Assembly (NCBI GenBank): GCA_009781675.1
Contig: WQVG01000012.1
Span: forward strand, 1-32,742
DNA length: 32,742 bases
Direction of reading: 5' to 3'
Source of the DNA: Candidatus Bathycorpusculum acetigenes
GTDB lineage: Archaea > Thermoproteota > Bathyarchaeia > Bathyarchaeales > Bathycorpusculaceae
In this document: piece by piece, positions 3,735-32,179 of the stretch
Position numbering within the stretch: position 1 is the stretch's first letter
How the letters are laid out: the number at the start of each line of letters is the position of its first letter
Position numbers and translations under genes: made by a program
Notes under the pieces: model-generated
The model's input: the letters and a program-made list of their open reading frames with translations, nothing else
The model's database searches: none
What the model was told of the DNA's origin: nothing

Positions 3735-4715
3735 ATGGCAGTCAAGGTAACACCCGATTATATTGATCTGTTAAACAAAGCGGTTGAACATGAACTAGGT
3801 GTCTCTGTCCAGTACATTCTTCAGCATGGAAAAATGGAGAAGCTGATCAAAAAACTTATTCCTGAAAATATATTGCTCGACAAAACTACCTATGATGCAG
3901 TCGGTAAATTCCTCCGTGAAATAGCTATCCAAGAAATGAAGCATGCTTCCGACATTATCGAACGTATTTATTATCTTGGCGGAAAAGCCGTTACAACTTC
4001 TGGTAAAGTCAACATCGGCAATAATATACGTGAATTTGCCCAGAACGGTGTTACAGCCGAGGAGGAGGCATTGATGCTCTACCGTCAAATCATCGAGGCC
4101 GCTGGAAAAATAGGCGACTGGCAGACAAGGACACTTTTTGAAAGAATCTATCGCGAAGAGGAAGATCATCTCTTCAAATTCCAAGAGTACGTAAAGTTTC
4201 AAGATGAACCCGATCAACCAAGTAAGGTGCCTATGCCCGAGTGGCGAAACATATACACAAACGACTACTTTACACTTCTCAACAAAGCGGTATCTGCCGA
4301 AATCACTGGTATCATTCAATATATTAATCAGCATGAAAAAATGAATTTTGTAGATCTAAGAGCAAAGAACACTGTGCTTGAAACTATAACGGAAACAAAT
4401 GGTGCTGTGGTGGTTAGTAAGATTCTCAGAGGCGTATTTATGCAGGAGATGGATCACCTTGAAAAAATCAGCGAACGTATCTATCTCCTTGAGGGTGAAG
4501 CAGCAACCAATCCCAATCCCCTTCCTGTTGTGGGTGAAACCGTCCAGGACTTCTTGGTATTAGATCACAAACTTGAAAGCGATACCATCGTACTATACCG
4601 TAAAATCATCGCTAAAGCTCTCGAACTCGGTGACACAACGACGCGGCGTTTATTTGAAGACATAATCATTCAAGAAGAAGAGCACTTCTGGGTATTTGAT
4701 GACTACCTAAAGTAG
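3735..4715 (+). CDS. Tandem-duplicated ferritin-like (bacterioferritin-type) protein
   Basis: 326 aa, about twice the usual 150-160 aa of bacterioferritin-like proteins. Two homologous four-helix domains (about 6-156 and 174-326) start with matching segments DYIDLLNKAVEHELGVSVQY and DYFTLLNKAVSAEITGIIQY. Each keeps a full diiron ligand set: domain 1 E20, E67-x2-H70, E109, E142-x2-H145; domain 2 E189, E238-x2-H241, E281, E314-x2-H317. Both halves carry a similar insertion after helix A (about 25 residues), so it predates the duplication. The likely role is iron oxidation/storage or peroxide protection in the cytoplasm, with the fused chain mimicking the bacterioferritin dimer. A heme-ligating Met cannot be assigned. 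ATG start; single gene followed by T-rich terminator sequence. Confidence 0.85.
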   Translation: MAVKVTPDYIDLLNKAVEHELGVSVQYILQHGKMEKLIKKLIPENILLDKTTYDAVGKFLREIAIQEMKHASDIIERIYYLGGKAVTTSGKVNIGNNIREFAQNGVTAEEEALMLYRQIIEAAGKIGDWQTRTLFERIYREEEDHLFKFQEYVKFQDEPDQPSKVPMPEWRNIYTNDYFTLLNKAVSAEITGIIQYINQHEKMNFVDLRAKNTVLETITETNGAVVVSKILRGVFMQEMDHLEKISERIYLLEGEAATNPNPLPVVGETVQDFLVLDHKLESDTIVLYRKIIAKALELGDTTTRRLFEDIIIQEEEHFWVFDDYLK

Positions 4716-20471: not shown

Positions 20472-21248
20472 GTGTTTTTTGGGAGAAAAATCAGAAAGCG
20501 TGTTTTTGTTCTATCAGCAATCTGGATTATGCTGTTGATATTAGTGTTATCGGCCATGTCACTACTTGAAGAAACGTTAACTAATCATCCGGATAGAAAC
20601 ACACTTTCAAGTTTAGGCTGGGCAGGATACATCGTTTCAAGCAATTATGACCAGCAATGTGAAATCACAAGCGTCAGCGCGTCATGGACCGTGCCACAGG
20701 TTAACACTACCTCAGGAGACGGTTATTCTTCAGCTTGGGTGGGTATCGGTGGACAGATTGATAAAACCTTGATTCAGATTGGAACAGAACACAATGTTCA
20801 TCGGGGGGAGGAGATGTATAATGTATGGTATGAGATGCTTCCCGATTATGCCATTCGAGTCGAGAATTTCACCTTGTCTCCTGGCGTTAGAGTAAGCGCA
20901 TCTATAACGCTCATAGATCCAGAAACCAACGAATGGAATATGCAGATAATTGATCTAACTAACGATAAAACCTTTGACCAAAACTTTGTCTACAACTCGA
21001 CCCGTTCTTCAGGCGAATGGATTGTGGAGCGGGCAATGGTAAACGGCCAAATCACAACACTCTCAGATTTTGGATCCATAACCTTCAACAACTGTCAGGT
21101 TGATGTAAATAACGACAGCGGTGTCATCAGCAACTTTATTCATTCCCGAGTTCACATGACAAATCAGCAGTTCGCCACATTAGCTTCTGCCTCAACACTT
21201 AACGGTGATGGCGAAGGTTTCACCGTTAGATATGCCCCGCACATATAG
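20472..21248 (+). CDS. Membrane-anchored glutamic peptidase (family G1, eqolisin)
   Basis: 258 aa. One N-terminal hydrophobic helix (about 9-32) after a basic start would anchor the protein with the peptidase domain outside the cell. The domain matches the eqolisin (G1/A4) pattern: GWAGYIVSS (49-57); SVSASWTVPQV (67-77); SAWVGIGGQIDKTLIQIGTE (87-106) with catalytic Gln102; WYEMLPD (119-125); and SGEWIVERA (180-188) with candidate catalytic Glu182; then DFGSITFNN. Known G1 enzymes are acid endopeptidases that use a Gln/Glu pair. Both are present, so activity is plausible. GTG start with GGAG at 20458-20461, 10 nt upstream. Divergent from the GNAT operon, and single-gene or upstream of ileS by 185 nt. 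Confidence 0.85.
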   Translation: MFFGRKIRKRVFVLSAIWIMLLILVLSAMSLLEETLTNHPDRNTLSSLGWAGYIVSSNYDQQCEITSVSASWTVPQVNTTSGDGYSSAWVGIGGQIDKTLIQIGTEHNVHRGEEMYNVWYEMLPDYAIRVENFTLSPGVRVSASITLIDPETNEWNMQIIDLTNDKTFDQNFVYNSTRSSGEWIVERAMVNGQITTLSDFGSITFNNCQVDVNNDSGVISNFIHSRVHMTNQQFATLASASTLNGDGEGFTVRYAPHI

Positions 21249-28809: not shown

Positions 28810-29106
28810 TTAGTTTTCAAGTAATTGTGATTTGGAACGGATTTTTTGCTTTAGACTGTAAACGAATGCGAGAAACCAAAATATCACCGTTGCCCAGCCA
28901 AACATAAATCCCACGATATTTCCCAACAGATAATAGGCCGCCTCAAAACCTACAATGGAGACAAACGTCAAAAATGAGCCGACTATGCTAAAGCCCCGTA
29001 GATAATTACGGTTCCTAATAACTGCTATTAGCATACAGAGTAGCGCAATAAAGTTTATGACCCCAGAAACATCCAGTAATAGATTAACAACTGCTAAAGT
29101 TTCCAT
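28810..29106 (-). CDS. Small integral membrane protein (98 aa), unknown function
   Basis: 98 aa from ATG 29106; a TTG at 29127 would add seven residues. Three hydrophobic segments are seen: about 4-26 (VVNLLLDVSGVINFIALLCM), 34-58 (FSIVGSFLTFVSIVGFEAAY) and 60-85 (NIVGFMFGWATVIFWFLAFV), with a basic C-terminal tail (LKQKIRSKSQLLEN). No family recognised. It is alone on the minus strand between the ribosomal operon promoter and a plus-strand CxxC gene. Codon use looks normal. Confidence 0.6.
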   Translation of the reverse strand: METLAVVNLLLDVSGVINFIALLCMLIAVIRNRNYLRGFSIVGSFLTFVSIVGFEAAYYLLGNIVGFMFGWATVIFWFLAFVYSLKQKIRSKSQLLEN

Positions 29107-29245
29107 TTTGTTTCGTTCCCAAGCCAAACAGGGTGTGCTTTAACTTAAGGTTGCCGCAACAACAAGCTCTGGGACGTAAAATGCCTTAAAAACATCGAAG
29201 GCCATTAATGTGCATCCGCGAAAGGAGAGGGGTGAGAAAATAAGA

Positions 29246-29380
29246 ATGATTTCGCGAGATTGCGACGGCTGCGGCTTGCAGAAACCCTGCATTAAACGTT
29301 TCCGCAAAGTAAATTTAGGTGAAAAAGTTTACTGTCCAGACGGCACAGCCCATCTAGTGGATCAAGCAAGCTTGGCATAA
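29246..29380 (+). CDS. Small four-cysteine protein (44 aa)
   Basis: 44 aa from ATG 29246, found by direct reading. Cysteines C6-x2-C9-x5-C15-x14-C30 in MISRDCDGCGLQKPCIKRF and VYCPDG would suit a zinc ribbon or a small Fe-S/zinc site. The purine-rich GGAGAGGGGTGAG (29224-29236) upstream contains SD-like GGAG and GGTG, but the spacing to the ATG is rather long. The gene is followed after 10 nt by a perfect hairpin with T tracts, which supports its being an expressed unit. Confidence 0.6.
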   Translation: MISRDCDGCGLQKPCIKRFRKVNLGEKVYCPDGTAHLVDQASLA

Positions 29381-30295: not shown

Positions 30296-30949
30296 TTGCT
30301 ACCTCCTGAATATCGGCCAGCCCAAGTGGGTATAGCAATTATCATTTTAGGTATAGTTGTTCTGCCGTTCCTTCTAAGTGTTCAAGCCCAAAATACAATC
30401 AATTTTCTGCCTACAGACACTTTTAGTATCCCCGAGCTTGATGGTTCCATCAACTTTGCCATAAATGGTTCCTGTAGATCGGCAGTTTTAGAAAATAACA
30501 CTTGGATTTTCAGGGGATTGGTACTTAATAACTCTCAAACTCGAGGAAACCTCCAAATCTCCACCGATAACTCTAATATAACAATCACTGATTTTCGCTC
30601 CAACAGCGCGTTTGGACGCAGTCAATACTTGAGGTACATATCAGAAGGGCAAGGTGTCCAGATAATTAATTTTGGAATCAACAGCACAACTAATGCCGCT
30701 GATTGGATGGTAACTCTTAATCGAACCCAATTTCTAACTGCAGGTGAAGGTTGGTATCTCCAACGCGACAATACAGTAGTCGTTAATGGACAAACAGGCA
30801 ACATAACGGTGATACATTATACCTACGACGACCCCAACAATAGCAATCTGCCCTTCTATGAACAACATTCGGTTGCGCTCACAATTGGGGTAGTGATCAC
30901 CGTCACCATTTTAGTAGCTGCATTAATAAGCATCAAAACAAGGCGATAA
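30296..30949 (+). CDS. Exported, membrane-anchored beta-rich protein of unknown function
   Basis: 217 aa, not recognised. N-terminal signal sequence (about 11-31, ending VQAQ), an external domain of about 155 residues rich in Asn/Thr/Ser and in beta-strand-like stretches (SINFAINGSC, WIFRGLVLNNSQTRGNLQIS, IIHYTYDD-like end), and a C-terminal membrane helix (about 190-212) with a basic KTRR tail. NNS/NNT/NAT-type sequons suggest glycosylation. One Cys pair is absent. TTG start supported by AAGGG 6 nt upstream. Its stop is only 3 nt before the polyferredoxin gene, so the two proteins probably act together at the membrane, for example as an external electron-accepting or scaffold subunit; this is inference. 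Confidence 0.65.
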   Translation: MLPPEYRPAQVGIAIIILGIVVLPFLLSVQAQNTINFLPTDTFSIPELDGSINFAINGSCRSAVLENNTWIFRGLVLNNSQTRGNLQISTDNSNITITDFRSNSAFGRSQYLRYISEGQGVQIINFGINSTTNAADWMVTLNRTQFLTAGEGWYLQRDNTVVVNGQTGNITVIHYTYDDPNNSNLPFYEQHSVALTIGVVITVTILVAALISIKTRR

Positions 30950-30952
30950 ACA

Positions 30953-32179
30953 ATGTCTGCGGTAACCGAAAACTCACCATTCATCGTCATACCCCTCTAC
31001 ATAGTGATTGTGATAATCAGCGCTATCTTTATTCTTAAGCTTACCAAGGATAAAACCCGAAAAATCAGCTCATTAAGGCTCATTATTCAAATAGCCGCAG
31101 TTGTCGCCATCTTTATGGGACTCATTTTAGGTCCTTTTAATGTACCGCTTTTTCAACCGCTGGGGCCCACACCCAGGGATCATCTCATCGGCGCAGACTT
31201 TTTAGGCAATCAGTTTCCTGATGGCATCTCCTTTCCAGTTCTAGCATGCTACTACCCTAATGGGCGCACAGTAACCTGCCCAATTTGGCAGCTTCAAGCA
31301 TACATTTTTCCGTTTTGGAATCACTCCCGTGGTTATGATGTTCTTTACTCTACCTCGGGATTGGAAAAAATCGGCATCGTAGTGGGTTTGGTGGCGGCGG
31401 CAGCCATAATACTGGGTCGCTCTGTCTGCGGTTGGCTTTGTCCTTTTGGATTGTATCAGGATGTGCTAACGCGGATTCGTAAATCGGCGCGTCTGCGGCA
31501 TCTAAGTTTTTCGGATAAAAATAGCGTTAAACTTGGCCAAGCACGATATGTTATAATTGCCATATTTCTCTTGCTGAGCGTTATTTTCGGTTCATACGCT
31601 ATATTTGGTACCGAACTCGTTCCTGGAACCATTCCGGGTGGACCACAAGGAACCGAAGCGGGGTTAGTAGGTAAAATCAACGAACCTTTCTGTCTGGTCT
31701 GTCCTGCAAGGCCTCTGTGTGTTCTAGCAGAATGTGCGGTGGGAGCTATGAAATACAGCTATGTTTCTCAGATAACCTATGGTCCACTTTGGATAGAGGG
31801 TTTCTATATATCGTCCATAAACATAGCGGTTCTTATCGCAGTTACCATTTTGGCTTTGGCATACCGGCGGTTCTGGTGTCGTATCTGTCCACTGGGTGCT
31901 ATAACAGGGTTTTTCAGCACTTTTAAACCCTTTAAGAATATCGCGCTTACCAAACTTGAGAAAAACCAGCAAAAATGCACCAAATGCGGCGTTTGTAAAC
32001 GTGTCTGTCCCACACAAGCAACAGCGATGTATGACATGAAAGGCGGCGATGTCACCGAATCCCGATGTATGCTCTGTGCAAGATGCATAGAAATCTGTCC
32101 CTATGAGGGTGCATTAAAGATGACTTTTGCCAGGAAAACTTTAGCCGAATCTCAAAATTGGTTGCAGAAGGACAAATAA
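30953..32179 (+). CDS. NapH/MauN-like membrane polyferredoxin
   Basis: 408 aa. Five or so membrane helices (about 12-30, 44-65, 138-156, 196-215, 287-304) carry cysteine motifs typical of the NapH/NosR/RdxA-type 4Fe-4S membrane proteins: CGWLCP (159-164) and CRICP (309-313). The C-terminal cytoplasmic domain holds two classical 4Fe-4S clusters, C342-x2-C345-x2-C348-x3-C352-P and C372-x2-C375-x2-C378-x3-C382-P. An extra group C247-x2-C250-x5-C256-x4-C261 lies between helices. It moves electrons between the quinol/ferredoxin pool and an external or periplasm-side partner; the partner is probably the co-transcribed 217-aa exported protein (gap 3 nt). Physiological donor and acceptor are not shown by the sequence. 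Confidence 0.88.
   Translation: MSAVTENSPFIVIPLYIVIVIISAIFILKLTKDKTRKISSLRLIIQIAAVVAIFMGLILGPFNVPLFQPLGPTPRDHLIGADFLGNQFPDGISFPVLACYYPNGRTVTCPIWQLQAYIFPFWNHSRGYDVLYSTSGLEKIGIVVGLVAAAAIILGRSVCGWLCPFGLYQDVLTRIRKSARLRHLSFSDKNSVKLGQARYVIIAIFLLLSVIFGSYAIFGTELVPGTIPGGPQGTEAGLVGKINEPFCLVCPARPLCVLAECAVGAMKYSYVSQITYGPLWIEGFYISSINIAVLIAVTILALAYRRFWCRICPLGAITGFFSTFKPFKNIALTKLEKNQQKCTKCGVCKRVCPTQATAMYDMKGGDVTESRCMLCARCIEICPYEGALKMTFARKTLAESQNWLQKDK

Follow-up and report, generated by a model that had tools for sequence, protein, structure and literature searches.

An operon of Bathyarchaeia pairing an exported beta-rich protein with a NapH-like polyferredoxin that carries four predicted extracytoplasmic cysteines

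The window analysed here is the whole of contig 12, 32,742 nucleotides, of the genome of a termite-gut-type archaeon, 2.14 Mb in 140 contigs. It carries two open reading frames, F1 and F0, separated by 3 nt from the end of the former to the start of the latter, and ORF calls placed both where an earlier note on this DNA had put them. Archaeal genes, including those of ribosomal protein L15e and RNase P p30, are located near the pair, and F0 is 86-89% identical to its closest named records, which belong to Candidatus Bathycorpusculum and other Bathyarchaeia MAGs. The features of the locus are given below, along with a module that is linked to the pair and lies immediately upstream of it (F3, the Cys4 ORF of 44 aa and F2), which the earlier note had missed.

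28810..29127, minus strand: F3, small membrane protein of 105 aa, divergent, belonging to the linked module; 19 genus genomes conserve it
29246..29380, plus strand: Cys4 ORF of the linked module, 44 aa, C-x2-C-x5-C-x13-C; relatives have it in this position with 80-95% identity
29491..30207, plus strand: F2, exported protein of 238 aa with an N-terminal signal and a C-terminal TM, linked but separable; same position in many relatives
30296..30949, plus strand: F1, exported membrane-anchored beta-rich protein of 217 aa, TTG start (ORF, hydropathy, AF2 model)
30953..32179, plus strand: F0, NapH-like membrane polyferredoxin of 408 aa, ATG start (Pfam Fer4_5 twice, Fer4_7)
31247..31279, plus strand: F0 extracytoplasmic loop 1, C99-x9-C109 (within LACYYPNGRTVTCPIWQLQ); invariant in the alignment, predicted outside, co-present with C247/C250
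31427..31444, plus strand: first CX3CP motif of F0, C159-GWL-C163-P (CGWLCP, residues 159-164), at the cytoplasmic edge of TM3; invariant, placed by topology
31691..31735, plus strand: F0 extracytoplasmic loop 2, C247-x2-C250-x5-C256-x4-C261 (alignment)
31877..31891, plus strand: second motif of F0, C309-RI-C312-P (CRICP, residues 309-313) (alignment)
31976..32098, plus strand: cytoplasmic two-[4Fe-4S] ferredoxin domain of F0, C342-C382 (Pfam Fer4_7/Fer4_10)

The domain content of F0 agrees with its earlier description as a membrane polyferredoxin with two 4Fe-4S clusters and CGWLCP and CRICP motifs. Fer4_5 (PF12801) is matched in two stretches with 52.5 bits against a gathering score of 22, and Fer4_7 with 36.5 bits against 27, the two C-terminal 4Fe-4S motifs being present as C-x2-C-x2-C-x3-C clusters at residues 342-352 and 372-382. 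The positive-inside rule predicts an N-out orientation, with 5, 8 and 17 lysine and arginine residues in the inner stretches; by hydropathy and charge, the ferredoxin domain and the CX3CP/CX2CP edges face inwards and residues 60-139 and 219-278 lie outside. When F0 was aligned with 22 bacterial relatives, C99, C109, C247 and C250 proved invariant, as did the eight cysteines of the ferredoxin domain and C159, C163, C309 and C312. The C-x2-C-x5-C-x4-C group pointed out earlier is present at residues 247, 250, 256 and 261, of which solely C247 and C250 are invariant, C256 being an archaeal feature and C261 variable; the invariant extracytoplasmic C99 and C109 had been overlooked. The second motif reads CX2CP here as against CX3CP in the bacterial relatives, and in the bacterial consensus all four C-P positions of the polyferredoxin read CPxG. 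The recurrence of CPxG at four positions suggests an internal repeat that would furnish one four-cysteine site on the inside and one on the outside.

When 137 sequences and the query were compared, many of the positives having been gathered by sequence pattern, all four outer cysteines were present in 119 and none in 18, with 1 ambiguous. Three of the 18 are partial or unrelated ferredoxin ORFs (NapF among them); the other 15 include E. coli NapH and YccM. A single split between two clades may be the source of this all-or-none pattern. The alignments place F0 in a branch of NapH-like proteins distinguished by four additional extracytoplasmic cysteines, which are present or absent jointly. The AF2 model of F0, built from 28 sequences, has a pLDDT of 48, which is too poor to judge whether the outer cysteines meet. 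No solved relative of the membrane part was found in the PDB, and the full F0 profile returned solely soluble ferredoxin-type domains among the PDB matches listed.

A membrane module with CX3CP motifs is common to NapH-like proteins, NosR and PceC (RdhC), and mutants of NapH and NosR reviewed in the same source show that these motifs matter for electron transfer (PMC5928378). NapH shares with F0 a C-terminal 2[4Fe-4S] domain and a membrane core that carries two Cys-x2/3-Cys-Pro motifs, but the E. coli protein lacks the additional N-terminal region of F0 and its four outer cysteines. F0 was rejected as a NapH because it falls far below the NCBIfam equivalog/subfamily cut-offs for NapH (77.3 vs 234 and 73.5 vs 213 bits) and lacks a NapG/NapA operon; neither NapG nor NapA lies beside F0 in the window, and the conserved neighbours in relatives are F1, F2 and F3. 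E. coli YccM, likewise a membrane protein that has ferredoxin clusters and motifs of the CX3CP type, differs from F0 in having none of the four outer cysteines. Flavinylated NapH-like systems have been proposed to transfer electrons to the outside (PMC8238504). FMN_bind was found in 0/32 genus genomes and in neither F1 nor F0, and ApbE passes in 1/32 genus genomes, so those systems are not applicable here and a flavinylated system of the NosR/PceC(RdhC) type was rejected. F0 is thus regarded as a variant of the known NapH-like polyferredoxins, being neither NapH nor NosR. The earlier remark that NapGH or NosR operons are not known from this group was overstated, as polyferredoxin homologues of the F0 family are present in 61/61 relatives searched, with several paralogues per genome.

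Some of these paralogues stand in a different setting. A DsbD/CcdA-like membrane protein (Pfam) lies beside several of the archaeal polyferredoxin paralogues, and the same neighbourhoods hold, by sequence reading, a 2-hydroxyacyl-CoA-dehydratase-like set and two BadF/BcrAD-type proteins. At L176 (G000:C53, 5749-10529), a paralogous polyferredoxin that has none of the four outer cysteines is flanked on one side by a DsbD/CcdA-like protein and on the other by a 2-hydroxyacyl-CoA-dehydratase-like protein with two BadF/BcrAD-type proteins; comparable sets occur at L160, L161, L175 and L195.

The partner gene F1 had been described as coding for an exported, anchored, beta-rich protein of no recognised family, and hydropathy, AF2 modelling and family searches bear this out. 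Its N-terminus is a hydrophobic signal peptide that ends in VQA-QN, a single hydrophobic helix lies at the C-terminus, and an ectodomain of ~160 residues is enclosed between the two hydrophobic segments. The AF2 model (six sequences, mean pLDDT 63) displays a beta-rich core, with its best blocks at about 70-81, followed by a helix at about 192-216 that corresponds to the C-terminal TM; the modelled ectodomain is beta-sandwich-like. Searches of Pfam, NCBIfam, PADLOC and PDB sequences returned no relative of F1, and a Foldseek fold search against the PDB gave nothing significant (best E = 0.04). On these searches F1 represents a new protein family. Its best conserved residues are F72, L75, Q122 and W153, found in 47/47 domains, along with G120 and W70, while H191, just outside the anchor, is near-invariant (43/47 domains) and the sole such histidine. 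A conserved cysteine is absent across the 47 domains, the maximum in any column being 18/47, and because of this F1 is probably a structural or docking partner and not itself the acceptor; a function as electron carrier is disfavoured on the same ground.

The neighbourhood conservation on which the earlier note had staked the pairing was found in the relatives. F1 lies immediately upstream of F0 in 29/32 genus genomes, the genomes without F1 being G022, G025 and G030, the last of which is 60% complete. The pair also occurs in G048, G054 and G057, which are members of another family, and F0 directly follows F1 at 12/13 further loci outside the genus whose neighbourhoods were read (exception G117), giving adjacency in 15/16 genomes checked there and a total of at least 44 genomes with the pair. 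A profile search with F1 over 257 genomes of the class gave 48 matches, two of them weak, and among the genomes searched the F1 family was found solely in this archaeal class (48/257). In 38 distinct pairs the intergenic gaps range mostly from -41 to +11 nt, with many 1- or 4-nt overlaps. Branch lengths of the F1 and F0 trees are correlated (r = 0.82, mirror-tree, without species-tree control), and long F1 copies (at least 500 aa, F1 domain C-terminal) form a single clade in each of the trees, modestly supported (0.67 and 0.42), as expected if the pair duplicated as a unit; a second locus carrying both genes exists. Since the pair is kept in at least 44 genomes, its adjacency is not due to chance. 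F1-F0 is a genuine conserved two-gene operon, confined, so far as searched, to one archaeal class.

F2, the Cys4 ORF and F3 often accompany F1/F0 in relatives, and F3 is often located beside the Cys4 ORF and F2 in genus genomes. G022, which is without F1, has F3, the Cys4 ORF and F2 (F2 at G022:C28); in G012 all three lie on other contigs than F1/F0 (F2 at G012:C29), as do F3 and the Cys4 ORF in G004 and G017. Membership of F2 and F3 in an F1-F0 complex is disfavoured, as they are separable from F1/F0, and F2, the Cys4 ORF and F3 are treated as a neighbouring module and not as part of the core pair. F2 was also rejected as a blue copper protein, as its weak cupredoxin HMM match (E = 6e-4) spans a low-complexity linker and F2 has no cysteine. 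Copies related to the Cys4 ORF number up to 10 per genome across most of the genus, with one outside it, and the copy at L154 (G024) contains an in-frame TGA. Elsewhere in the window, a Peptidase_A4 (G1 glutamic peptidase) family protein (20472-21248, plus strand, 115 bits) is encoded in this archaeal genome, as is a ferritin-like protein of 326 aa (3735-4715, plus strand) in which two stretches match ferritin.

The closest parallel to the pair comes from clostridial 4Fe-4S membrane proteins, which are 29-35% identical to F0, have the four outer cysteines invariant and, like F0, are linked to an exported partner gene. These clostridial polyferredoxins (L072-L146) carry the motif NCYSCP...CPIGSLQ. 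A TlpA-like thioredoxin lipoprotein (Pfam AhpC-TSA/Redoxin) is encoded within three genes upstream at 46/68 bacterial (clostridial) loci and at 0 within three genes downstream. The clostridial partner is a thioredoxin-fold lipoprotein with CxxC, whereas F1 is cysteine-poor and beta-rich. In the archaeal F1-F0 neighbourhoods no TlpA-type motif was found and F1 stands there instead; an exported TlpA-like partner was not found in the genus, where the Redoxin-family hits inspected look cytoplasmic. No relevant report of a TlpA-polyferredoxin pair was found in the literature searched.

A study of related termite Bathyarchaeia reports that Rnf and methanophenazine biosynthesis genes are absent and that ferredoxin is a central carrier (PMC7886697). 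F1-F0 may form a two-subunit membrane complex that uses ferredoxin to drive electrons outwards, the outer cysteines being the exit site and F1 docking or stabilising, a proposal to which we give an even chance. The C-terminal 2[4Fe-4S] domain of F0 would take electrons from reduced cytoplasmic ferredoxin and pass them via the inner CX3CP/CX2CP cysteines to C99, C109, C247 and C250 on the outside. Acting jointly, either as a dithiol relay or as an Fe-S centre on the outer side, these four would reduce an extracytoplasmic acceptor. F1 would be a non-redox, cofactor-free anchored ectodomain beside F0 that stabilises F0 or docks the acceptor. The pairing of the genes, the topology signals, the conserved motifs, the all-or-none outer cysteines and the lack of flavinylation parts are observations; we infer the direction of the electrons, the cofactor of the outer site and the physical contact between F1 and F0. 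The earlier note had read the pair as a membrane electron-transfer unit to an outside acceptor; the two-gene unit and a topology suited to outward electrons support this, whereas a redox role of the exported protein is not supported, as F1 has no conserved Cys. Because F1 is without conserved redox residues, the outside acceptor is not visible at the locus; by analogy with the TlpA-paired clostridial relatives it is most likely a disulfide or another thiol or metal substrate. A link to thiols is also indicated by the DsbD/CcdA-like protein next to some archaeal paralogues. That F1 takes the place of the clostridial thioredoxin without resembling it counts against the model.

A wider reading, which we hold only tentatively, treats the four-outer-cysteine polyferredoxins as a transmembrane ferredoxin:disulfide (thioredoxin-like) reductase, for which Clostridia would use TlpA and Bathyarchaeia the class-specific F1 with another acceptor. 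The inner and outer four-cysteine centres, forming the C...CPxG internal repeat, would then carry electrons across the membrane. CcdA/DsbD thiol-reduction conduits have the role proposed here for F0, taking cytoplasmic reducing power outside; however, they are built on an unrelated membrane protein, and F0 would use ferredoxin and not thioredoxin.

It is unlikely, although worth weighing, that the pair is instead a metal-reductase or metallocentre-assembly unit, in which a CcoG/NosR-like F0 reduces a metal (e.g. copper) or helps to load a cofactor outside and F1 replaces NosD as the assembly factor on the outer side. CcoG, a relative with similar motifs, is regarded as a cupric reductase. In other polyferredoxin paralogues the N-terminus is extended by an extracytoplasmic region and a NosD-family protein comes next, as in G013; a stand-alone F1 precedes an ABC ATPase and an ABC-2 permease in an arrangement like that of NosDFY (G017; L184), and another is divergent from a plastocyanin-type cupredoxin (G008; L183, 5143-5778, minus strand). 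At L182 a stand-alone F1 adjoins an ABC transporter that is metal-type by sequence reading. These F1 associations are, however, single cases; such neighbours are absent at the pair of the window and none is consistent beside F1-F0 elsewhere.

F1 also occurs as a tandem domain (L280) and as the C-terminal domain of longer proteins of 522-652 aa with the polyferredoxin still next (L162-L167). In six genomes the F1 domain follows a long N-terminal part, which in the single one scanned (L162) is a YNCE/lactonase-type beta-propeller. This architecture, the lack of conserved redox residues in F1 and the presence of F4, reading like a PAS/kinase-type protein, nearby in some genomes would suit a signal or stress sensor, in which F1 senses an outside condition and F0 reports or sets the membrane redox state. 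The core pair, however, has no conserved adjacent kinase or regulator, and the complete cluster-binding motifs of F0 imply electron transfer, which makes a sensor quite improbable. That F1 is an unrelated surface protein merely sharing a transcript with F0, as its occurrence away from F0 in several genomes might suggest, is very improbable given how tightly the two genes are coupled in at least 44 genomes, the second locus with both genes included.

Few routes for electron export are known in Bathyarchaeia, which are abundant anaerobes, and FMN_bind-type extracytosolic flavoproteins were not detected in this genus. An outward relay of F1 and F0 linked to ferredoxin would be a concrete candidate for such export. 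As the same branch of polyferredoxins is found beside exported thioredoxins in many gut Clostridia, the claim of ferredoxin-driven thiol reduction on the outer side of the membrane is testable in cultivable bacteria.
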